Below, one piece after another: positions 17,560-57,056 of a DNA stretch of 64,000 bases. The position numbers and the translations under genes are program-made. The stretch comes from an uncultured Cyclobacteriaceae bacterium (GTDB taxonomy: Bacteria; Bacteroidota; Bacteroidia; Cytophagales; Cyclobacteriaceae), in contig CALGOB010000040.1 of assembly GCA_937958005.1 (NCBI GenBank), positions 1 to 64,000 of the forward strand. Reading direction: 5' to 3'. Positions within the stretch are counted from its first letter, which is position 1. Each line of letters opens with the position of its first letter. The notes beneath the pieces were generated by a model. It did no database searches. It saw only the letters and a list, made by a program, of their open reading frames with translations, and was not told the DNA's origin.

Positions 17560-17943
17560 CTAGTCTTCCTCTATCTCCATAAAATTAAAATCAAGGCCAA
17601 GAAGGTCGCTATAATCTTCCCCAGCCTCCATCATATCATCGTCATCCTCTTCATAGTACCAGTTGATGGTAAGATCTTTACCACTGGCATCTATTTTGCT
17701 AAGTCTTTTGAAAACATCAAATAGACATTTAGAGGAACTTGTATTAAAATATTCAAATGCAAAATTTGCAATGAATTCATCACCTCCTTGATTTATGAAT
17801 TCTTCAAGTCCTTCAATGATTTTAGCATAAAATTGAATTGAATTCTCAGGACTAGAACGTCCTTTCAATTCTAATAAGCCCTCATTTGGATCAAAGTTAA
17901 CTAAGGGTGTGACTTTAGTAGGTTCTATAAAAATCTTTTCCAT
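17560..17943 (-). CDS. SiaC-family regulatory phosphoprotein (DUF1987)
   Basis: 127 residues of the DUF1987 family. The segment EYFNTSSSKCL places a threonine at position 68, the same number as the phosphorylated Thr of Pseudomonas aeruginosa SiaC. The protein is expected to switch between a phosphorylated, inactive form and a free form that binds its target. The neighbours are the kinase and phosphatase that would control it. The C-terminus is strongly acidic (EEDDDD). Confidence 0.88.
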   Translation of the reverse strand: MEKIFIEPTKVTPLVNFDPNEGLLELKGRSSPENSIQFYAKIIEGLEEFINQGGDEFIANFAFEYFNTSSSKCLFDVFKRLSKIDASGKDLTINWYYEEDDDDMMEAGEDYSDLLGLDFNFMEIEED

Positions 17944-17958
17944 AAAATTAATAACACC

Positions 17959-18522
17959 TTAATTTAAATCTCTGGGTAATCTTACTTGTAATGTAAAGTA
18001 AGTAACATTTTCATTAACTGGCTGGAATTTATACCTCAACTTCTGCCCGCCTGTCTTTCTCGCGATATCTATAAAACCCAAACCTCCTGTTCCTTTGTCC
18101 GAAAACTCTTGAAGATTAAGTGCTTCTTTATACATTGCTCTTAAACCATCTGAGTCAACAGAGTTGATATCATCCAGTCTTTTCTGAATCTCCTTAGTCT
18201 TGTTGGAAGGAACATAATTTCCAGTTTGTAAACTGTAAAACCTCTTCCTAGCGGCGATTAACACCAGCGCAGATTTAGAATCATAACTGCTTATAGGTGT
18301 GCCTTCCGCATTTACTTCATCTAAATGGTAATACAAATTCTGAATACATTCAGTTGCTACATTGTAGAACTTCTTCTTTACCCTTCTATTTTCTTCTAAC
18401 TCTTCAAGTCTTTCTTCAAGAGTAGATATCATGGATGTTACCAGGTCGAAAGTTAATTCACCCTTGTATAACAGTATGATATTTTGATCGTAAATATTTT
18501 TATAACTTCTTAAATAATCCAT
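17959..18522 (-). CDS. SiaB-family protein kinase (DUF6272)
   Basis: 187 residues. The N-box-like TECIQNLYYHLDE (about 57-69) and a glycine-rich GTGGLGFIDIARK segment near 143-155 mark a GHKL-type ATP-binding fold as in anti-sigma-factor kinases. This is the predicted Thr/Ser kinase of the SiaC protein encoded 15 nt downstream. Cytoplasmic, no membrane segment. Confidence 0.85.
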   Translation of the reverse strand: MDYLRSYKNIYDQNIILLYKGELTFDLVTSMISTLEERLEELEENRRVKKKFYNVATECIQNLYYHLDEVNAEGTPISSYDSKSALVLIAARKRFYSLQTGNYVPSNKTKEIQKRLDDINSVDSDGLRAMYKEALNLQEFSDKGTGGLGFIDIARKTGGQKLRYKFQPVNENVTYFTLQVRLPRDLN

Positions 18523-18637
18523 AATAAGATTTAGTCATGAACTAATTTCATGAAAATTAAATATTATTTTTAACTTAATCCAAGATTATAAATAATTAAT
18601 TTTCAATTGTTTGGAATGTGACTATTAGATTAAAAGT

Positions 18638-19789
18638 TTAAATCCTGAAACCCAGTACCATAACGTCATCTGTTTGATCTGAGTCTTTTTTCCAATCTTC
18701 GAATCTTTGAGAGATTAATTCTTTTTGTTCTTTAAGTGGAAGCTCACTAGCTTCCTTGAAAAGTTCCCTCAATCTCTTAGCCATAAATTTTTTATCTTGC
18801 GGCCCTCCAAATTGATCTTGAAATCCATCGGAACACATATAGATAGTATCTTTTTTCTGTAATTGTATATTGTGAACACTTAAACTATTGTCATCTTCCG
18901 TTTTACCAACCATCCCACCTAGCATTACTTTATCTGCCTTATGGACGATTAGTTCCCCTTCTCTCATAATATATAACGGAATTCCTCCACCTGCATAACC
19001 TAGTTCGTTTGTATCAAGATCAACCACACAAAGTGCCATCTCCATTCCGTCTTTGCTATCTTCTGGATTTTCTCCTTGCTTTAGCTCATATTTTATCTCT
19101 TGATCCATCCTAGCCAAAATTTTATTTGGATCTAGGTAATTTTGATAATAAACAATATTAGTTAATAAATTATTTCCCATCATGGACATAATAGCGCCAG
19201 GAACCCCATGTCCAGTGCAATCAGCAGCAGCTATTACCATATACTCTTTTCCAGCTCTATTGATTTTTTCGAACCAATAAAAATCGCCACTTACCACGTC
19301 TTTTGGCCTGTAGAAAATAAAGCTTTCTTTAAAAATACCCTTTAACATCTTTTCATCAGGTAACATTGATCGCTGTATTCTTTCCGCATAATTAATACTG
19401 GCAGTCAATTGTTTGTTGACGTAATGAATCTCTTCTGTGGTCGATTCTAATTCTTTCCTTTGTTCTTCAATTCTCTGATTAAAGGTTCTTTCATTTTCAA
19501 TATTGTTAATTAACAAGGAAGCAGTTTTATCTAATTGCTCTGCGACTAAACCAAATTCATGTGACTTATTGATATTGGTTTCTATATTGAAATTTCCTTT
19601 AGCAATTTCCTCTGATATTTCTTTAATTGTATCAATTGGCTTAAGAATAGTGATAATTCCTAAAAGCCCTAAGATTAGGCCTACTAAAGCAGATATGATT
19701 TCTATGTAAGGAATATCAGGAACTAATATTGGGATTCCTACAGTTAAAATTATTACTACGACAGTAAGTAAAATTAATTTTACTTTCAT
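18638..19789 (-). CDS. SpoIIE/PP2C-type phosphatase with membrane anchor (SiaA-like)
   Basis: 383 residues. Two hydrophobic helices at the N-terminus (about 1-47) are followed by a HAMP-like segment, a coiled coil (about 100-135) and a PP2C domain. All metal-binding motifs are intact: VSGDFYWF, AAADCTGHGVPGA, MCSDGFQDQ and QTDDVMVL. It heads the operon phosphatase-kinase-phosphoprotein-coiled-coil protein and probably dephosphorylates the SiaC-type protein in response to a membrane signal. Unlike Pseudomonas SiaA there is no large periplasmic sensor domain between the two helices. Confidence 0.88.
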   Translation of the reverse strand: MKVKLILLTVVVIILTVGIPILVPDIPYIEIISALVGLILGLLGIITILKPIDTIKEISEEIAKGNFNIETNINKSHEFGLVAEQLDKTASLLINNIENERTFNQRIEEQRKELESTTEEIHYVNKQLTASINYAERIQRSMLPDEKMLKGIFKESFIFYRPKDVVSGDFYWFEKINRAGKEYMVIAAADCTGHGVPGAIMSMMGNNLLTNIVYYQNYLDPNKILARMDQEIKYELKQGENPEDSKDGMEMALCVVDLDTNELGYAGGGIPLYIMREGELIVHKADKVMLGGMVGKTEDDNSLSVHNIQLQKKDTIYMCSDGFQDQFGGPQDKKFMAKRLRELFKEASELPLKEQKELISQRFEDWKKDSDQTDDVMVLGFRI

Positions 19790-48053: not shown

Positions 48054-49010
48054 ATGTCAATATTAGTTTTTATAGAAACAGACGAAGGGGCGGTTAAAAA
48101 GTCTTCTTTAGAAGCAGTGAGCTACGCCGCTGCAATGAATAGCGGTGATGTAATAGCACTCGCATTTGGTGAAATTGATCAGTCAGAATTGGCTGCGACT
48201 GGTAAAAGCGGAGCAAGTAAAGTATTGCATGCATCAGATTCCCAGTTGAAAGAAGGAAATATTCAAGCTTATGCCACAGGTGTAGCAGCAGCAATGAATG
48301 CGCAGGGAAGTGATTTATTAGTTTTAGCAAAATCTTCTTTGGGTGATGCAGTAGCAGCTAGAGTTGCTATCAAAACCAATGCAAGCCTTGCGTCTAATGT
48401 TACTTCTTTACCTGATTTATCGAGTGGATTTCATGTAACTAGAAGTATTTACACTGGTAAAGCATTTGCAAAAGTAGCTTTAACGGGGGATAAAAAAATA
48501 ATAGCAATTAAAAAGAATGCTGTTGAAATTAAATTAGATGGTGATGAAGCTAGTGTTGAAGCTTTTAACCCAGAAATTCCTTCTTCTGATTTTAGTGTAA
48601 ATAAATTGTCGCAAGAAAAAGCGACCGGTGATGTCTTATTGCCAGAGGCTGATATTGTAGTTTCTGGGGGAAGAGGTTTGAAAGGACCAGAAAACTGGAA
48701 TATGATTGAGGATTTAGCCAAGACACTAGGAGCTGCAACAGGTTGTAGTAAACCGGTTTCAGACATTGGATGGAGACCTCATCATGAACATGTTGGCCAG
48801 ACAGGTGTTAAAGTAAGCCCTACTTTGTACGTTGCTGTTGGTATTTCAGGAGCTATCCAACATTTAGCAGGTGTTAATTCATCTAAGTTTATTGTAGTTA
48901 TTAATAAAGACGAAGATGCACCATTCTTTAAGGCTGCTGACTATGGAATAGTAGGTGATGCATTTGAAGTTGTGCCAAAACTAACTGAGGCACTTAAAAG
49001 CGCTAAATAG
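48054..49010 (+). CDS. etfA: Electron transfer flavoprotein alpha subunit
   Basis: 318 residues. The C-terminal FAD-binding domain is clear: VVSGGRGLKGPENWNMIEDLA, GCSKPVSDIGWRPHHEHVGQTG, and ISGAIQHLAGVNSSKFIVVIN. Partner of EtfB; same operon. Confidence 0.96.
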   Translation: MSILVFIETDEGAVKKSSLEAVSYAAAMNSGDVIALAFGEIDQSELAATGKSGASKVLHASDSQLKEGNIQAYATGVAAAMNAQGSDLLVLAKSSLGDAVAARVAIKTNASLASNVTSLPDLSSGFHVTRSIYTGKAFAKVALTGDKKIIAIKKNAVEIKLDGDEASVEAFNPEIPSSDFSVNKLSQEKATGDVLLPEADIVVSGGRGLKGPENWNMIEDLAKTLGAATGCSKPVSDIGWRPHHEHVGQTGVKVSPTLYVAVGISGAIQHLAGVNSSKFIVVINKDEDAPFFKAADYGIVGDAFEVVPKLTEALKSAK

Positions 49011-49014
49011 ATAA

Positions 49015-49614
49015 GTGGACAAAATTAAACTAGAAATATTGGGACTGTCTTCAAGTCAGACACAAAATGGATCTTTTGCATTAGTTTTAGGGGAATCTAA
49101 AGGTAATAGAAGGCTTCCAATTATTATTGGAATGTTTGAAGCGCAAGCCATTGCGATCGAGATTGAAAAAATAGTACCTAATAGGCCAATGACGCACGAC
49201 CTTTTCAAATCATTTGCTTATAGCATAGGTTTCGATTTGAAAGAGATACTGATTTCTGACCTTAAAGAAGGGGTTTTCTTTGCTAAAATTTTGTGTAAAG
49301 GTGATAATGGTGAGTTTACCATAGACGCTAGGCCGTCAGATGCTATTGCTATTGGTCTTAGGTTTGATGTACCTATTTTTACAAATGAATCTATTTTGAC
49401 AGAAGCAGGGATTGTACTTGCAGATGATGCTGATGATGAAATAGCTAAAATTAGAAAAACTGATGATAAGCCTGAAGAGACAAAAGAATCTTCAAATGAG
49501 CAATTGGACGAAACATCTCTTGATAAACTTGAAATTTTGCTTAAGGAAGCATTAGAAAAAGAAGATTATGAGAGGGCAGCCAAAATTAGAGATGAATTAA
49601 ATAAAAGAAGTTAA
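49015..49614 (+). CDS. Bifunctional nuclease family protein (DUF151) with UvrB/C motif
   Basis: 199 residues. The BFN/DUF151 domain spans 1-130 (LPIIIGMFEAQAIAIEIE, RPMTHDLFKSF, DARPSDAIAIGLR). A C-terminal UvrB/UvrC-type motif is at about 165-199 (EILLKEALEKEDYERAAKIRDEL). The start is GTG at 49015, 4 nt after the etfA stop, implying coupling. Plant homologues have RNase and DNase activity; the bacterial role is uncertain. A terminator follows. Confidence 0.88.
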   Translation: MDKIKLEILGLSSSQTQNGSFALVLGESKGNRRLPIIIGMFEAQAIAIEIEKIVPNRPMTHDLFKSFAYSIGFDLKEILISDLKEGVFFAKILCKGDNGEFTIDARPSDAIAIGLRFDVPIFTNESILTEAGIVLADDADDEIAKIRKTDDKPEETKESSNEQLDETSLDKLEILLKEALEKEDYERAAKIRDELNKRS

Positions 49615-49643
49615 TATCATTGTAACCTATATTTCTAGTAGCC

Positions 49644-49681
49644 AAAAAAACCAGTACTCTAATGATAGTACTGGTTTTTTA
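49644..49681 (+). terminator. Intrinsic terminator of the etfBA-nuclease operon
   Basis: Stem AAAACCAGTACT/AGTACTGGTTTT with a short loop and T-run. Confidence 0.9.
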
Positions 49682-49732
49682 TTGTTAATATTGCTGTCAT
49701 CCGTGAAAAAGAGATGCCCTGTTTTATTCTAC

Positions 49733-49760
49733 ATTATGCAATAGAAATTTGATGTAAACC
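49733..49760 (+). mobile_element. Fragment of the 185-bp MITE-like element
   Basis: The stretch ATGCAATAGAAATTTGATGTAAACC matches the end region of the MITE (ATGCAATAGAAATTTGATGCAAACC) with one difference over 25 bases; the outer TTAACCCGAAT end is degraded and similarity fades after 49760. Confidence 0.65.
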
Positions 49761-50215
49761 AGATCTAAATTGTTATAAAAGCCATCTGACTGGAGCTCGA
49801 TTAATCATTTTTTCCATTTTTTAGTTCTTAATTGGTACTATTAGATTTTGTCTGGGTGCATATTCAATTAATCAGTATAGAATAATATTTCATTTTTGTG
49901 TTTTTCAATGCTTCACCACTACTTCAGGAGTCTTTACTTAGGTGTAGTAGAACTATATAATGATTGATGAGATTAAAAAAACAAAACTAATAACCCTCCG
50001 CAAATGCGAGTATAGGTACAACCGTCTGTTAAGTGGTTGTAATGAAGAGACTTACAATAAGGATAAATTTTCTAATACATAATTCAGATTAAAAAAGACA
50101 TCTATTCTGATATTTATCGAGTGCAATTGTATGTCTATCGAAAAAAGAAATAAGAAACGATTGAAAAGACTAGTTTTATAACTGATTTAAACTACTAGAT
50201 ACACAATTTATTTTA
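49761..50215. other. Intergenic stretch before the sensor kinase gene
   Basis: 455 bp without a credible gene. A small stem ACAACC/GGTTGT around 50018-50040 is the only structure seen. Confidence 0.4.
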
Positions 50216-52897
50216 ATGGTAATCAAAAGGATGTTTTTTAAAATAGGTCTAATAGCAATGATGTTGTTACCTTTTCATGTTTTCGCACAGCAAGGGGCTA
50301 CTTATCAGAGTGCAAGTAGCCTATTGGAAGTTTCTTATGGTAAATTTGAAACTTCAAATTTTGATAAAGCCATTGAGTACGGATTAAAAGGATTAGCTGA
50401 GGCTGAAGAGATTCAAGATGATGGACTTAGTTTGCAGTTTAAAAGTATTTTAGGAAATTCTTACCTAGAAAATAAAGAGTATAAGATAGCTTCTAATTAT
50501 TTCCTTCAAATAGCTTTACTAGCTAAACAAGAAAAGAATGATGTGATAGCAGCAAATGGTTACATGGCTTTAGCTAAGGTTTATGTAGAAATGCAAGCTT
50601 TTAAGAAGTCAGCAGAAACTTACGATGCTGCAGCAGGATTTTTTGCCAAAACTGATGATAGCGAAAGTTATGTTAATGCAAAAACAGCAGTTGCTTTTAA
50701 TTATTTATTTGCTAAAGAATACAATTTAGCAGAGAACACCTTTAAACAATTAATTGATCGATTAAAAAATGATGAGTTTTATGTATCATCATTTAATGAG
50801 CAGTTAGGTATTATATATGAAGATCAGAAACAATATAATAAAGCAATTAATGCCTTGCAAGTGGTCTATAAGTTTTCCCAATCTGAAGGTGATCGGTCTA
50901 AGGAAGTTCAGGTAGCTAGGAAAATTGCAGAACTTTATACAAAGACTGGGAATGGAAGTAAATCCTTAGAGTTTGCAAAACTAGCATTAGCTAAATCCCC
51001 AAATAACATAGAAAGCAATAGATTACTGGGCGAAGCCTATATTGCTAATAAAAATTATGATCAGGCAATTACATCATTGGTTCAAACAGTAAATTTGGTA
51101 AGAGCTTCACCTAATGCTATACAAAAACCAATTGTATATAAATGGTTAGCTAAAGCATATCAATTATCAGAGAAACCGCAAAATGCTTTAGATGCTATCA
51201 AACAGGCAGAAAATGCAGTAGCGGGTCAACAACTCTTAGATGAAAAGGAAGAAATCTATAGCTTGGGGGCTGAGATAGCCGTTGCAGTAGGGGATATCCC
51301 TGATAGTAAGAGGTATAAAGCATTATACAACTCAGCTGTAGCAGCAAATAAGAAATCAAAACAACAAGAATTAGCTACCCTGATTCGTTATGATAACAGA
51401 GCTCGTGCTAATGAGAGTGAATTAACTTTGTCAATTGCTCAAAAATTCAGTAGTGATTTTGTGAATAAAAGTAGAGAGCTTACCGATGAGCGTGGTAGGC
51501 AAGCAAAAGAATTACGTTCAAAGAGTTTTGAATTAGCTGATACTCGAGAAGCAAATGCAGAGCTAAAACGTCTTCAACAGTATCAGGATTCGGTAATAGC
51601 TGCTAATCAAAAAACGGTGGCCGAAATTTCTAAAGACAATGAAGAGCTGTCCTCAAATATCAAAGAAATAGATAAGGAAAGGATAGATGCGATGAATGAA
51701 GTAGAGGCTAAAACTTACCTGATTACCCAGCAAGAAAAAATCTCGAAACAAGAAAGAGAAAAGGCGGCACAGGATAGGATATTTTTCTGGTCAGCTATAG
51801 TGGGAATTGTTTTGATATTAATGGTGATCTTATATGCTTATTTTAAAACTAATCAATCCAGAAAAATAATAACGCAACAAAATGTGAATCTTGAGTCACA
51901 GCAAAATGTGATCAAGAAGAGAAATTCCCAGTTGAAGAAAAGCTCTGATCATTTGTTGAAATCTAATAATAAACTTAAAAGGACTCAATTAAGTCTGAAG
52001 TCCTCGCTTTCTAAGGAACAGCAGATGAGAACCGAGTTAGAGTCAATTAATTCAGAGTTGAAGAATACACAAGTTCAGTTGATTCATGCTGAGAAAATGT
52101 CTTCACTTGGTCAATTGACAGCAGGTATAGCTCATGAAATTAACAACCCTATCAACTTTGTATTGAATAGTGCCAATATTATAGGGATGAACTTTGGGGA
52201 ACTTAAAGAAATTTTTGAACATTTTCTTGTAGTAAAAGAAGGTGATAAAATAGTTGAGTACAGTAAGACGTTAGACAAAGAAGAAATAAAAGATTCAATA
52301 GAAATAATAGAGGAAATGTTAGGGAACCTGAAATACGGTGCAGATCGAGTTACCGAGATTGTTAAGGGACTTAGGACCTTCTCAAGGTTTGACGAAGCGG
52401 AAATAAAAACAGTTGATATTCATGAAAATCTAGAATCCTCACTATTGATCTTGCACAATAAATATTCAGACCATAATATTGCAATTGTTAAAGAGTTTGA
52501 TGAAAAACTACCAGAGATAGAATGTTATCCAGGTCAATTAAATCAAGTTTTTGTGAATATAATAAACAACGCTATTGATGTGATTGCAAATAAAGAATCG
52601 CCTGAAATTACAATAGGCACCTATTTTGAAGAGGATAAGGTCATGATTTTTATTAAAGACAATGGGCCGGGAATCCCTGAAGACGTGCAATCTAAGATAT
52701 TTGACCCATTCTTCACGACAAAAGAAGTGGGAGAGGGTACTGGTTTAGGCCTTTCTATATCACATAGCATAGTTCAGCAACATAAGGGATTGATAACAGT
52801 CGACAGTAGATTGGGAGAAGGTACTAAATTCACTATAGCGCTACCAAAAAATTTATATAATAGCACCAATAAACAGCAAGCTGTTGCTGCAAATTAA
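50216..52897 (+). CDS. Sensor histidine kinase with N-terminal TPR array
   Basis: 893 residues. Signal peptide (about 1-25, ending VFAQQ), TPR repeats in the periplasm (about 30-380), a helical coiled-coil stretch, one membrane helix (FFWSAIVGIVLILMVILYAY, about 520-540), a second coiled coil and the kinase core. The phosphorylated His is H640 in GIAHEINNPINF, the N-box is QVFVNIINNAIDV and the G-boxes are DNGPGIPE and GTGLGLSIS. A signal sensed by or through the TPR array would pass to the two response regulators encoded directly after. No output domain is fused. Confidence 0.92.
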   Translation: MVIKRMFFKIGLIAMMLLPFHVFAQQGATYQSASSLLEVSYGKFETSNFDKAIEYGLKGLAEAEEIQDDGLSLQFKSILGNSYLENKEYKIASNYFLQIALLAKQEKNDVIAANGYMALAKVYVEMQAFKKSAETYDAAAGFFAKTDDSESYVNAKTAVAFNYLFAKEYNLAENTFKQLIDRLKNDEFYVSSFNEQLGIIYEDQKQYNKAINALQVVYKFSQSEGDRSKEVQVARKIAELYTKTGNGSKSLEFAKLALAKSPNNIESNRLLGEAYIANKNYDQAITSLVQTVNLVRASPNAIQKPIVYKWLAKAYQLSEKPQNALDAIKQAENAVAGQQLLDEKEEIYSLGAEIAVAVGDIPDSKRYKALYNSAVAANKKSKQQELATLIRYDNRARANESELTLSIAQKFSSDFVNKSRELTDERGRQAKELRSKSFELADTREANAELKRLQQYQDSVIAANQKTVAEISKDNEELSSNIKEIDKERIDAMNEVEAKTYLITQQEKISKQEREKAAQDRIFFWSAIVGIVLILMVILYAYFKTNQSRKIITQQNVNLESQQNVIKKRNSQLKKSSDHLLKSNNKLKRTQLSLKSSLSKEQQMRTELESINSELKNTQVQLIHAEKMSSLGQLTAGIAHEINNPINFVLNSANIIGMNFGELKEIFEHFLVVKEGDKIVEYSKTLDKEEIKDSIEIIEEMLGNLKYGADRVTEIVKGLRTFSRFDEAEIKTVDIHENLESSLLILHNKYSDHNIAIVKEFDEKLPEIECYPGQLNQVFVNIINNAIDVIANKESPEITIGTYFEEDKVMIFIKDNGPGIPEDVQSKIFDPFFTTKEVGEGTGLGLSISHSIVQQHKGLITVDSRLGEGTKFTIALPKNLYNSTNKQQAVAAN

Positions 52898-52903
52898 CTG
52901 GGA

Positions 52904-54079
52904 ATGAGATTAGATAATGATAGGCTTGATATTCGTGCAGTCAATAAGCACAATATTTTATATGTAGATGATGAAATTATCAATTTAAAAGTTTTTAAGG
53001 AAACTTTTAAAAGGTATTATAACGTATTCTTGGCTCAATCAGGAAAAGAAGGGTTGAAAATTTTAGACGAAGTTAAAATAGATCTGGTAATTACCGATCA
53101 AAGAATGCCTGAAATGTCAGGAACTAAGTTTTTGGAAAAAGTAGTTCATAAATACCCAGAAGTATTAAGGATGATTATGACTGGTCACTCTGATCTGGAA
53201 GTTATTATTGAATCTATCAATGACTTTGGTGTTCATCAATACATTACCAAACCATGGAATTCTGAATCATTAAAAAATACTTTTGATACTTTTCTAAATA
53301 AACAGAATAAAGAACTTTCCAAGAAGCAGGATATAGAAGCTGTAAATGCAAGTGATGAAGACAAGTTAAGCGCTTATGCCAAGTCCTTAATTGGATTTAA
53401 GAAGCTGAGAACGGATGTTATTAGAGAGCATTTTGATAATCCGATCATTATTAATTATTCTAAAGAGTGTGAAGGAAAGGAAAACATATTTATCCATGAA
53501 TTCAAAAATCAAGATAGTTTTCTTTTTTTAATGGTTAACTGCTCTGTGAATCATGTAGAAGGCAGTTTAATTAAGTCATTTATTCTCGAATATGCAAAAG
53601 ACTATGTAATTGGTAACAAAGTTTTTAACCCAATTGATTTTTTTAATTATTTATCAAAAATTAATGACCAAGTAGTTAAGCAGCATTTTTATGATGACAT
53701 TAATATTGGAATGACGGTGTTTTTCAGTCATAAAGAGAAGCCAAACGACTGGGTAATTACCAATTCCGATATGATATTTGGCTATAAAGAAGGTCAAATA
53801 GTTAATTTTGAAGAAAGTGAAACAAATGGAGTGCAACTCTCTAGTAATGAGGCTAAAATATATAAATTGAACGCTGAGGCATGTGATAAAATTTATGTTT
53901 ATACGATAGATACCATAACTGATAAAGATGTTTTTGAAGGAAACTTATTACATCTTTTAGATAGTAATTTAGCGGTCTCTTATGGGGAGAAATTAATCGC
54001 TTTGCAATCATTTCTAAACTCGTCTATATCTGAAAGTGGGGTTGACAAGTTTTGCATGGTAGGCTTAGATTACGCCTAA
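52904..54079 (+). CDS. Response regulator with degenerate PP2C-like output domain (first copy)
   Basis: 391 residues. Receiver domain (15-130): acidic pair D22 D23, phosphoacceptor D65 (VITDQRMPEM), T93 and K116. The C-terminal domain (about 195-391) follows the strand and helix pattern of SpoIIE/PP2C phosphatases but lacks metal ligands: the Asp of ADCTGHG is N212 (VNCSVNHVEG) and the final DD is DK (VDKF, 380-383). It should therefore not be an active phosphatase; E. coli RssB has this layout of receiver plus pseudo-PP2C and works as an adaptor. Starts 6 nt after the kinase gene. Confidence 0.83.
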   Translation: MRLDNDRLDIRAVNKHNILYVDDEIINLKVFKETFKRYYNVFLAQSGKEGLKILDEVKIDLVITDQRMPEMSGTKFLEKVVHKYPEVLRMIMTGHSDLEVIIESINDFGVHQYITKPWNSESLKNTFDTFLNKQNKELSKKQDIEAVNASDEDKLSAYAKSLIGFKKLRTDVIREHFDNPIIINYSKECEGKENIFIHEFKNQDSFLFLMVNCSVNHVEGSLIKSFILEYAKDYVIGNKVFNPIDFFNYLSKINDQVVKQHFYDDINIGMTVFFSHKEKPNDWVITNSDMIFGYKEGQIVNFEESETNGVQLSSNEAKIYKLNAEACDKIYVYTIDTITDKDVFEGNLLHLLDSNLAVSYGEKLIALQSFLNSSISESGVDKFCMVGLDYA

Positions 54080-54167
54080 CTTTACTATATTTACCTATCA
54101 GCTATATGGAAAAATAGTTAGTCAATCTTTAAGTTAAGAATGACGTTAATATTAGAAATTTTCCATA

Positions 54168-55322
54168 ATGACAAGTCAAAATACAATTAAGAGCAAAGAA
54201 GCTTTAATCAAGCCTAATATTTTATATGTAGATGATGAAGAGATCAATTTAAAGGTTTTTAAATCAACTTTTAAAAGACATTATAATGTATTTGTAAGTA
54301 CTTCAGCTTATGAAGCAATAGACCTATTGAAGGAGCAAGATATTCAATTGATCGTTACTGATCAAAGGATGCCTGAAATGAATGGGACGGAACTTCTCTC
54401 TAAAGTAATTCCGAATCACCCTGATATTTTGAGAATGATTATGACTGGTTTTAGTGATCTTGAGGTGATTATTAGAGCAGTAAATGAATTTGGAATACAT
54501 CAGTACATTACTAAACCTTGGGATTTTGATTCCTTAAAAGCAGTTTTTGATGATTTTTTAATCAAACCAAAAGTAGAAGGGAGTAGGGAAAAAGCTATTT
54601 CCTATGACAGCACGCATATCACTAAGTATGCCGAAGTAATAGTCAACAAAAGAAATACTGAAGATTTTGATTTAATCAAAAAATACTTTAAAAATACAAC
54701 TCTGATGAATCATTCTACGAGTTGCAACGGCGAGAAGAATTATTTTATACATGAGTTTAAAAAAGGAGATGCAGTTTTAGCATTTATTGCAAGTAGTAGT
54801 GTAGTTGGAATAAGGGGTAGCATGATCAAATCTTTTGTTGGTGATATGGCCAAAGATTTATTACTATCTAAGAATGCATTTAACCCTGTTAATTTCTTTA
54901 GAAGTCTTTGTAAATCCACTAACAGTTTTCTCAAAGATATAGAAGTAGAGGACGAAGAGATTAATATTCAAATGATCTATAAGCATACCATTAAGCCTAG
55001 TACTTGGGTGCTGACTAATAAATCCAAGATACTGACGTTGAAGGACGATAAGTTTGTAGAATTGCCAGTGCATTCAACTAAGCCGGACGAAAAATTAGTG
55101 ATCTATAGATTAGATCCAAGTGTTTGCGATAAATTTTATTTGTATTACATAGATGGTCAAAATAAAGGGGTAGCAATTGAATCAGAATTAGGACAAAGAA
55201 TCCTTGATTTAAATACTGGGCAACAAGACGATTTATCAAATATAGAATTACAATCTTATATGGATCACTTATCAGCCAATGCAGATATTGATAAGTTCTC
55301 AATATTATCAGTTGAATTATAA
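54168..55322 (+). CDS. Response regulator with degenerate PP2C-like output domain (second copy)
   Basis: 384 residues, a paralogue of the preceding gene with the same layout. Receiver: D22 D23, D65, T93, K116 all present. In the PP2C-like region the first metal Asp is S209 (ASSSVVGIRG) and the last DD is again DK (IDKF); the YTDG motif reads YYIDG with a possible one-residue shift. The two copies have diverged widely outside the receiver, which suggests distinct partners. It is preceded by an 88-bp gap and followed immediately by a reverse repeat copy. Confidence 0.83.
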   Translation: MTSQNTIKSKEALIKPNILYVDDEEINLKVFKSTFKRHYNVFVSTSAYEAIDLLKEQDIQLIVTDQRMPEMNGTELLSKVIPNHPDILRMIMTGFSDLEVIIRAVNEFGIHQYITKPWDFDSLKAVFDDFLIKPKVEGSREKAISYDSTHITKYAEVIVNKRNTEDFDLIKKYFKNTTLMNHSTSCNGEKNYFIHEFKKGDAVLAFIASSSVVGIRGSMIKSFVGDMAKDLLLSKNAFNPVNFFRSLCKSTNSFLKDIEVEDEEINIQMIYKHTIKPSTWVLTNKSKILTLKDDKFVELPVHSTKPDEKLVIYRLDPSVCDKFYLYYIDGQNKGVAIESELGQRILDLNTGQQDDLSNIELQSYMDHLSANADIDKFSILSVEL

Positions 55323-55326
55323 TCCT

Positions 55327-55423
55327 AATGAACCAACCCCGACCCAAGGGTACGGGGTATCTATGGGCAATAATTTAATGATCGACTCAAGAGTCGGGGA
55401 ATTAATATCCCTTAGGGATTAAA
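55327..55423 (-). repeat. Hairpin repeat, copy K (97-bp form, reverse)
   Basis: A complete compact copy in reverse orientation, beginning AATGAACCAACCCCGACCC and ending CCCTTAGGGATTAAA, 4 nt after the stop of the second response regulator and 67 bp before the nupC-type gene. Confidence 0.93.
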
Positions 55424-55489
55424 ATATTTTTCAATACTTGCCTTTGCTTTGAACTCTAATTGCTTATTTTCGGACTTAAATTAAACAAT

Positions 55490-56839
55490 ATGAGTTTTTT
55501 AAGACTGTTAATGGGTATAGTTTTCTTTATTGCGATAGCTTATTTTTTCTCAAATAACAGGAAGAAAATTGATTGGAGACTTGTAAGTGTGGGACTAGGT
55601 CTACAGTTAATATTGGGACTTGTATTGATAGGAGGTGCTAGGGCAAAAGTAGAGACGGAATGGATAAAATTCGTATTGAATTTTGTCCCAAATATTTTTG
55701 CCTCTCTTAGTGAAAAATTTGTGACTTTGTTAGGATATACCGAACAAGGGACTGCCTTTTTATTTGGTAATCTGCTGAATGATAATGGGAATATTGGATT
55801 CATATTCGCCATAAAAGTACTACCTACAGTTATATTTTTTTCTACCGTTACTGCAGGACTATATTATCTAGGAGTCTTACAGATAATTGTTAAATCAATT
55901 GCTTGGGTGATGGCAAAGACCATGAGGCTTTCTGGTGCAGAATCACTTTCTGCGGCAGGTAATATCTTCCTTGGTCAAACTGAAGCTCCTTTATTGGTGA
56001 AGCCATTTGTGGCTAAAATGACTAATTCAGAATTGATGTGTTTGATGACCGGAGGAATGGCCACCATTGCTGGTGGAGTGTTGGCTGGTTATGTGTTTTT
56101 GCTTGGAGGAGATAGTGCAGAAGAACAGGTGAAATTTGCTTCTTATTTGTTGAGCGCATCCATTATGAATGCACCCGCAGCGATTGTTATTTCTAAAATA
56201 TTAACCCCTGAACTTAATAAGGAAGCAATTAATACCAGTTTAACAGTAAGTAGTGAATCATTGGGTGTTAATTTAGTAGATGCATTAGCAAATGGAGCTT
56301 CAGAGGGCTTAAAATTAGCTCTTAATATTGGGGGAATGTTGTTGGCCTTTATTGCGGTGATAGCGGCATTAAATGGAATTTTGGAGTGGCTTGGTGATAT
56401 TCATTGGTTTGGTGCTCAATATAACTTGAATGATTGGATAACGGGAATAACTGATGGGCAATTTGATGCCTTATCTCTTCAGTACCTACTAGGGCAAGTT
56501 TTTAGGTTTTTTGCTTTTTTTATGGGAGTAGACTGGAATGAATCCTCGTTAGTTGGTTCATTATTAGGTACTAAGTTAGCAGTTAATGAGTTTATAGCCT
56601 ATCAAGGCCTGAAAGACTTTATGAAAGTAGAGAACTTATTGAGTGAAAAATCAATTGTAATTTCTACTTATGCTTTGTGCGGTTTTGCTAATTTTAGCTC
56701 AATTGCCATTCAGATTGGGGGAATAGGGGGGATGGCACCTACCCAACAAGGTAATATATCAAAATTAGGTTTTAAGGCACTTTTTGCAGCCACTATCGCT
56801 ACTATGTTGACAGCTACTATTGCTGGTGTTTTCTTTTAA
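55490..56839 (+). CDS. NupC-type concentrative nucleoside transporter
   Basis: 449 residues when started at the ATG at 55490 (MSFLRLLMGI), which the membrane topology supports; the open frame extends 30 nt upstream from a TTG. CNT signatures are GNIFLGQTEAPLLVKPF, MTGGMATIAGGVLAGYV and CGFANFSSIAIQIGGIGG. It imports nucleosides with H+ or Na+ across the inner membrane. Elsewhere in this window a deoxynucleoside kinase could use its products. Confidence 0.9.
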   Translation: MSFLRLLMGIVFFIAIAYFFSNNRKKIDWRLVSVGLGLQLILGLVLIGGARAKVETEWIKFVLNFVPNIFASLSEKFVTLLGYTEQGTAFLFGNLLNDNGNIGFIFAIKVLPTVIFFSTVTAGLYYLGVLQIIVKSIAWVMAKTMRLSGAESLSAAGNIFLGQTEAPLLVKPFVAKMTNSELMCLMTGGMATIAGGVLAGYVFLLGGDSAEEQVKFASYLLSASIMNAPAAIVISKILTPELNKEAINTSLTVSSESLGVNLVDALANGASEGLKLALNIGGMLLAFIAVIAALNGILEWLGDIHWFGAQYNLNDWITGITDGQFDALSLQYLLGQVFRFFAFFMGVDWNESSLVGSLLGTKLAVNEFIAYQGLKDFMKVENLLSEKSIVISTYALCGFANFSSIAIQIGGIGGMAPTQQGNISKLGFKALFAATIATMLTATIAGVFF

Positions 56840-56888
56840 CAGAAGTGGATTTAACTATCTATTAAAATGAATGATTGCGAAAATCAAA

Positions 56889-56999
56889 TTTAATCCCTAA
56901 GGGATATTAATTCCCCTGGCCGGGCGCCCCGACTCTTGAGTCGATCATTAAATTATTGCCCATAGATACCCCGTACCCTTGGGTCGGGGTTGGTTCATT
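56889..56999 (+). repeat. Hairpin repeat, copy L (111-bp form)
   Basis: A complete copy, apparently identical to copy D by eye, between convergent nupC-type and mgsA genes. Confidence 0.94.
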
Positions 57000-57056
57000 T
57001 AAAAGCTCTTTTCAATTAGCTAGAAGATTCTTTACAAATAATTGGAAAAAGTGTAG

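Follow-up and report, generated by a model that had tools for sequence, protein, structure and literature searches.

Kinase-linked response regulators with ligand-poor PP2C-type output domains in an uncultured Cyclobacteriaceae bacterium: a candidate binding switch

Introduction

Escherichia coli RssB is the well-known example of a phosphatase fold turned response-regulator adaptor. A comparable layout is encoded in an uncultured Cyclobacteriaceae bacterium, in a 64,000-nt stretch of contig CALGOB010000040.1 that was analysed at full length (the window): positions 50216-55322 encode, head to tail on the plus strand, a histidine kinase with a TPR sensor and a pair of response regulators, here W1 and W2, each regulator joining a complete receiver to an output domain of putative PP2C origin in which metal ligands have been replaced. 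Two helices present in the Pseudomonas aeruginosa protein (PaRssB) are absent from the E. coli protein (EcRssB) (PMC7226468), and PaRssB is reported to be catalytically active yet still an adaptor (PMC12143880), so that loss of catalysis is not diagnostic of an adaptor. The nearest intact kin of W1 and W2 are PP2Cs of the SiaA/SpoIIE type, including receiver-PP2C regulators of the same family, with which they appear to share domain ancestry but from which they differ in the loss of the metal ligands.

The interpretation favoured here, with moderate confidence, is that W1 and W2 form a binding switch that is gated by the kinase and has no phosphatase activity. The TPR kinase would phosphorylate both receivers and, since the output halves would be former PP2C phosphatases unable to hold the catalytic metals, phosphorylation would alter what W1 and W2 bind, not what they dephosphorylate; both would then bind under the control of phosphorylation, so as to sequester a partner or deliver it. 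Gene order, domain make-up, the ligand loss common to four orthologues, its frequency among receiver-PP2C proteins of the family and a comparable arrangement in a second genus are read directly from sequence; phosphotransfer from the kinase, the lack of activity and binding as the output are, all three, steps that we infer.

Loss of metal ligands in W1 and W2

Ligand columns were read by alignment with intact PP2Cs from the bacterium's own genome. N212 of W1 and S209 of W2 occupy the Asp column of the DCxGHG motif and the final DD reads DK in both proteins, in agreement with the initial annotation, which had also described a TPR histidine kinase and two regulators with complete receivers; the TPR, HisKA and HATPase_c domains of the kinase and the receiver domains all lie above their Pfam cut-offs. 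Beyond that description, the Asp of motif 1 (GDFYW) is replaced by E193 in W1 and by Lys in W2, the Asp column of SDG (motif 8) holds Ile in both (I335 in W1), and of the final DD only the leading Asp is retained (D381 in W1). The DCxGHG Asp and the GHG motif are absent from all four orthologues, that is, W1, W2 and their two counterparts in a sister genome, and neither W1 nor W2 has the full set of four ligand Asp residues of an active PP2C/SpoIIE phosphatase. Beyond the receivers, neither protein has a Pfam match over cut-off, no match at E<=1 is a phosphatase, and PF07228 does not match either at E<=1. The W1 receiver residues listed in Table 1, whose roles we presume to be those usual in receivers, fall in columns invariant across the four-orthologue alignment; W1 and W2 are 40% identical to each other.

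Fold predictions and relation to RssB

AlphaFold2 models were built from four sequences, and that of W1 is fair (pLDDT 69.9, pTM 0.54). Comparison of the predicted folds with RssB, proposed as a check in the initial annotation, placed P. aeruginosa RssB at the top of the Foldseek matches in the PDB, followed by E. coli RssB structures, for W1 and likewise for the weaker W2 model; for W1 the PP2C tPphA was also matched, after the RssB structures. A PP2C fold of the W1 output domain is thus supported by prediction, with helices 341-354 and 360-378 modelled between its final two strands, like the two helices that PaRssB has and EcRssB lacks. Superposition of whole chains on RssB scores poorly (TM-score 0.3-0.4, rmsd 12-25), which probably reflects a different placement of the two halves. 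LvrC of Leptospira (9qih), also a response regulator, ranks seventh among the fold matches of W1 and twelfth among those of W2. Matches obtained by VIA-align of the models were filled by receiver domains and so have no bearing on the output half, and a profile of the four output sequences gave weak, unrelated matches against the PDB (six at E<=10, best 0.057).

W1 resembles RssB in joining a receiver to a predicted PP2C-fold output (the W2 model being weak), and both regulators resemble E. coli RssB in having lost catalytic residues. Unlike EcRssB, whose PP2C domain is truncated at the C-terminus, W1 and W2 have full-length output domains, and unlike PaRssB, reported to be active, they are ligand-less. 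The NCBIfam RssB models reach W1 at 42.6 of 329 bits (NF007969) and 41.3 of 700 bits (NF045505), and W2 at 37.7 of 329 bits (NF007969), in each case over the receiver only; orthology with RssB was rejected, the family cut-offs being far off. In line with the initial annotation, which had RpoS lacking in this phylum, none of three TIGR02394 matches in the bacterium's own genome (96% complete) exceeds the curated cut-off; the two best, at 260 and 252 bits versus 378.7, are presumably other sigma-70 factors. The two-part layout, equal to that of RssB, together with the RssB structures as best fold matches, would suit adaptors that, once phosphorylated, pass a non-RpoS sigma factor on to ClpXP, an explanation that we judge unlikely given the absence of an RpoS match over cut-off, the scores far below the RssB family cut-offs and the reported activity of the PaRssB adaptor. 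The label RssB-like, as first applied to this locus, therefore holds for the best fold matches and the catalytic loss, and fails for the full-length output domain, the receiver-only family matches and the SiaA/SpoIIE type of the nearest intact kin; W1 and W2 are better regarded as a novel version of the RssB-like scheme than as RssB itself.

Receiver-PP2C regulators in the family

Of 390 family genomes, four gave matches (E<=0.001) to a profile of the four output domains, namely two of the bacterium's own genus and two in which the matches are intact PP2Cs (8.9e-7 and 4.9e-4), one of these being a receiver-PP2C regulator directly behind a kinase. Aligned with intact PP2Cs by hhalign, the same profile runs end to end (231 columns, E 1.9e-4) at a probability of only 48%, which makes the ancestry of W1 and W2 less sure from sequence alone than from the fold and from a profile of the related output domains of a second genus, g89, described below. 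When 390 genomes of the order were searched with the g89 profile, 136 gave matches at E<=1e-6, the best of those examined being intact PP2Cs, and the profile matches a receiver-PP2C protein of the bacterium's own genome (L003) at 6.1e-22. For the intact PP2Cs, the best profile match among solved structures is 6k4e (7.1e-61), the SiaA PP2C.

A survey of 78 family genomes (E<=1e-50, at most 23 candidates scored per genome) gave 30 receiver-PP2C proteins, with the own and sister genomes included: 28 came from the match list and two from fetched stretches, and 10 are intact and 20 ligand-poor. With seven g89 proteins found via their kinase, 27 of 37 such proteins are ligand-poor (39 rows less two truncated duplicates, one of W1 and one of its orthologue). 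The samples are non-random, since they derive from lists ranked by E-value, from a query in which ligand-poor proteins were already included and from a kinase search, and many of the 27 are mutual orthologues. Among PP2Cs without a receiver at the same loci, none of 18 distinct proteins (21 rows, three of them fragments of others) lacks a ligand, all four being present. Seven receiver-PP2C proteins are among the matches in the bacterium's own genome, of which L004 and L005 are intact and W1, W2, L003, L006 and L007 ligand-poor.

When the 30 proteins are placed in a tree, W1 has its partner in one protein of the sister genome and W2 in another, and the four stand together at 100/100; a receiver-only tree groups them at 99/95. 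As the ligand loss is common to all four orthologues, it most simply predates the W1/W2 duplication. The initial annotation had argued from loss of the same ligands in two diverged paralogues; separate losses in W1 and W2 are rejected here because the trees do not support two independent losses and the loss is shared by the four orthologues. Across the family, the intact or ligand-poor label changes three times in both trees, and well-supported branches require at least two of these changes. Since neither tree is rooted, reading the changes as losses assumes an intact ancestor. On that assumption, related bacteria seem to have lost the ligands of such proteins more than once.

The distance from KPW to motif 1, determined with the L097 pair set aside, is short, at 74-77 residues, in the W group, as it is in L003/L094 (75), L006 (72) and the g89 proteins (66-67), and long in intact proteins (97-114) and in a second ligand-poor clade (97), with the ligand-poor L100 (121) as the exception; the linker of W1 and W2 is thus at least 20 residues shorter than that of intact receiver-PP2C regulators. 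In a published model, a coiled coil in the linker switches PP2C dimers on (PMC12143880), and shortening of the linker would fit a loss of such dimer control.

The second ligand-poor clade (L069-L074 and L096, seven genomes) reads FSEEF at motif 1, mostly EFDGKG, then SNG or TNG, then DD, and its regulator gene lies tail to tail with an intact PP2C gene in six of seven loci. A further tandem receiver-PP2C pair behind a kinase in the sister genome (L097, 2324-4692) retains two and three of the four ligands, and is perhaps a case of ligand loss in progress. In other families of the order, receiver-PP2C genes were intact in 9 of 9 cases, taken from the best g89-profile matches, from two genera only (seven and two), outside the 37 and with no rate claimed.

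The kinase and its arrangement in genus g89

The kinase carries what we take to be the H box (HEINNP), the N box and the G box, and lies beside receivers with the acceptor Asp, the make-up of a two-component system; by eye it has a signal-peptide-like start, a TPR sensor part, one transmembrane segment (about 522-545) and a coiled coil. A search of 390 family genomes with its sensor part found matches at E<=1e-25 in 11: two of the genus (own and sister), eight of genus g89 and one other. In all eight g89 genomes holding a like kinase at full length, a single regulator (377-381 aa) lies directly behind that kinase, its receiver complete and its PP2C-derived domain ligand-less, one of these domains with a lone Asp at one ligand column; the window kinase is 34% identical over 846 residues to that of genome G090. 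The sister genome (locus L011) has the kinase and two regulators in an equal neighbourhood, whose order, with names assigned by likeness, is presumably electron-transfer flavoprotein genes, a nuclease, the kinase, the two regulators and a NupC-like transporter.

In the kinase tree, a 100/99 branch separates the kinases of the W and g89 loci together from 13 kinases of other regulators, and the two sets are not closely joined; receiver trees join the two groups weakly (28/23). The case for common descent of the arrangement therefore draws less on trees than on gene order and the sensor part. No regulator adjoins either of two further, partial matches to the sensor part in g89 genomes, and the eleventh genome has a second kinase without a regulator within the stretch read. 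This wider pattern, of frequent ligand loss and of the same arrangement in a second genus, exceeds what had initially been described.

Several further observations concern these loci. Over window positions 50216-51890 the sensor part is 32% identical to the sister-genome kinase, versus 66% for the kinase part. An open reading frame of 249-272 aa lies 3' of the regulator in 8 of 8 g89 loci (L127-L134), and four of these frames, when scanned, gave no Pfam match over cut-off. At L136 (3172-3561) a receiver-only protein of 129 aa follows a kinase related to that of the window, and no PP2C remnant was seen by eye in 0.95 kb translated from its start. In the order's other families, sensor-part matches (E<=1e-25) occur in four genomes besides the own, of 390, and at all four loci (L167-L170) an intact PP2C replaces the kinase behind the TPR sensor part, with a SiaC gene nearby in three; TPR likeness being generic, these matches are given little weight.

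Constraint and competing explanations

All 12 ligand-poor domains of the arrangement (four of the W group and eight of g89) are open reading frames of full length in which conserved positions are present. Differences at codon positions 1, 2 and 3 are 0.44, 0.29 and 0.60 for W1 and 0.47, 0.33 and 0.63 for W2, and of 28 g89 pairs the 11 with computable dS give dN/dS values of 0.14-0.48, which are rough because dS exceeds 1.6 in all 11; in the remaining pairs dS is saturated.

A number of findings weigh against the binding switch, the strongest being that the output domain, although constrained, evolves far faster than the receiver: identities are 26-79% for output versus 83-100% for receiver in g89, 44 versus 68% for W1 and 40 versus 74% for W2. 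For comparison, the single intact pair measured has 63 versus 71%, the ligand-poor pair L007/L093, at 76 versus 84%, behaves like it, and the ligand-poor pair L003/L094 has 61 versus 85%. Such fast evolution also fits a domain of little importance, and it would equally suit a receiver that works alone, with a CheY/Spo0F-like output or as a phosphate sink, the PP2C half being a leftover under relaxed constraint that is maintained for the sake of solubility or dimer shape. We consider this the main competing explanation, possible though less probable: a related kinase in the eleventh genome (G081) is followed by a receiver without an output domain, and the operon is without a partner gene, the nearest SiaC gene found on the contig being 33 kb away; the full length of the 12 domains, their codon-level constraint and their conserved positions argue against a mere remnant.

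Also unfavourable to the binding switch are the poor W2 model (pLDDT 57.7, pTM 0.41) and the residues from which a partial metal site could be retained. D336 of W1, just after the Ile of the SDG column, and D381 are invariant across the four orthologues, and hhalign, by a shift of one residue, sets D336 on the SDG Asp, a register in which two of four ligand positions would be kept in W1 and W2, and otherwise one of four. An unusual catalysis with altered ligands (E193, D336 and D381) is nevertheless highly improbable in our estimation, the DCxGHG Asp and GHG motif being lost in all four orthologues and W2 having Lys at motif 1.

Candidate partners

The intact SpoIIE-type PP2C that had been proposed as an internal reference for the motifs proved suitable, lying beside DUF6272 and SiaC genes elsewhere in the window (Table 1); the DUF6272 protein is SiaB-like by position and likeness, and the SiaC protein has FNTSS at a position like that of the known phosphosite, P. 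aeruginosa SiaA dephosphorylating SiaC at T68 within LNTSS (PMC7647112). Homologues of both SiaABC and RsbU-V-W partner-switching systems are present in the bacterium's genome, with three SiaC proteins over cut-off (in this window, beside the intact regulator L004, and on C96) and an Rsb-like set of PP2C, STAS and RsbW-like ATPase together on C14. Unlike those systems, the operon has no adjoining SiaC, STAS or switch-kinase match, the genome's PF09345, PF01740 and PF13581 matches all lying away from the locus, and is linked to them only by kin. A SiaC gene adjoins 3 of 10 intact regulators (L004, L065 and L095) versus 1 of 27 ligand-poor ones (L100, with a kinase between), as counted in the stretches read, some with less than 1 kb on one side.

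Because some intact relatives adjoin SiaC genes, SiaC- or STAS-type phosphoproteins may be guessed to be fair candidate partners of the ligand-poor regulators. A more speculative and rather doubtful extension is that the receiver-PP2C regulators of this family repeatedly became kinase-controlled phosphatase decoys, in which inactive PP2Cs would, on signal, bind the SiaC or STAS phosphoproteins of active paralogues and shield them against dephosphorylation; if true, two-component control would have been added to partner switching without enzyme activity.

Genomic context

The kinase and W1 genes are separated by 6 bp, and a terminator-like hairpin 5' of the kinase suggests that the kinase, W1 and W2 may share their own transcript. 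Three terminator-like sites were seen in 49600-55600 versus 2.0 expected by shuffling, a difference without statistical weight. A Bacteroidota-type promoter pattern has two matches in the window versus 3.9 expected, none within the region; sigma-70-type sites are no more frequent than in shuffled sequence, and an Rfam scan of 49000-57000 gave nothing at the gathering threshold.

Table 1. Features of the kinase and regulator locus and of the reference module in the window
Feature	Positions	Strand	Details
Histidine kinase	50216..52897	+	893 aa; TPR sensor, HisKA, HATPase_c
W1 response regulator	52904-54079	+	391 aa
W1 receiver domain	52904..53296	+	PF00072 1.5e-21; D22, D23, D65, T93, K116 present
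W1 short linker and predicted PP2C-fold output domain, apparently no usable metal site	53297..54079	+	E193, N212, I335; D381-K382
W2 response regulator	54168-55322	+	384 aa
W2 receiver domain	54168..54560	+	PF00072 6.1e-21
W2 short linker and putative PP2C-type output domain, apparently no usable metal site	54561..55322	+	S209; final DK; low-confidence model
Terminator-like hairpin	49645..49680	+	14 pairs, with T run; between preceding gene and kinase
Intact SpoIIE-type PP2C	18638-19789	-	adjoins DUF6272 and SiaC genes
Reference module: intact SpoIIE-type PP2C, DUF6272, SiaC	17560..19789	-	outside operon

Implications

In the one literature library searched, no report of inactive receiver-PP2C response regulators as a class was found. 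What appears new is the commonness of ligand loss among the receiver-PP2Cs of this family and the occurrence of the arrangement in two genera, rather than the W1/W2 pair alone. Since ligand loss is frequent here, both across sister species and beside paralogues that are intact, one lineage of bacteria makes it possible to compare and test how an enzyme may become a binding protein, how its linker shortened and whether its partner changed.

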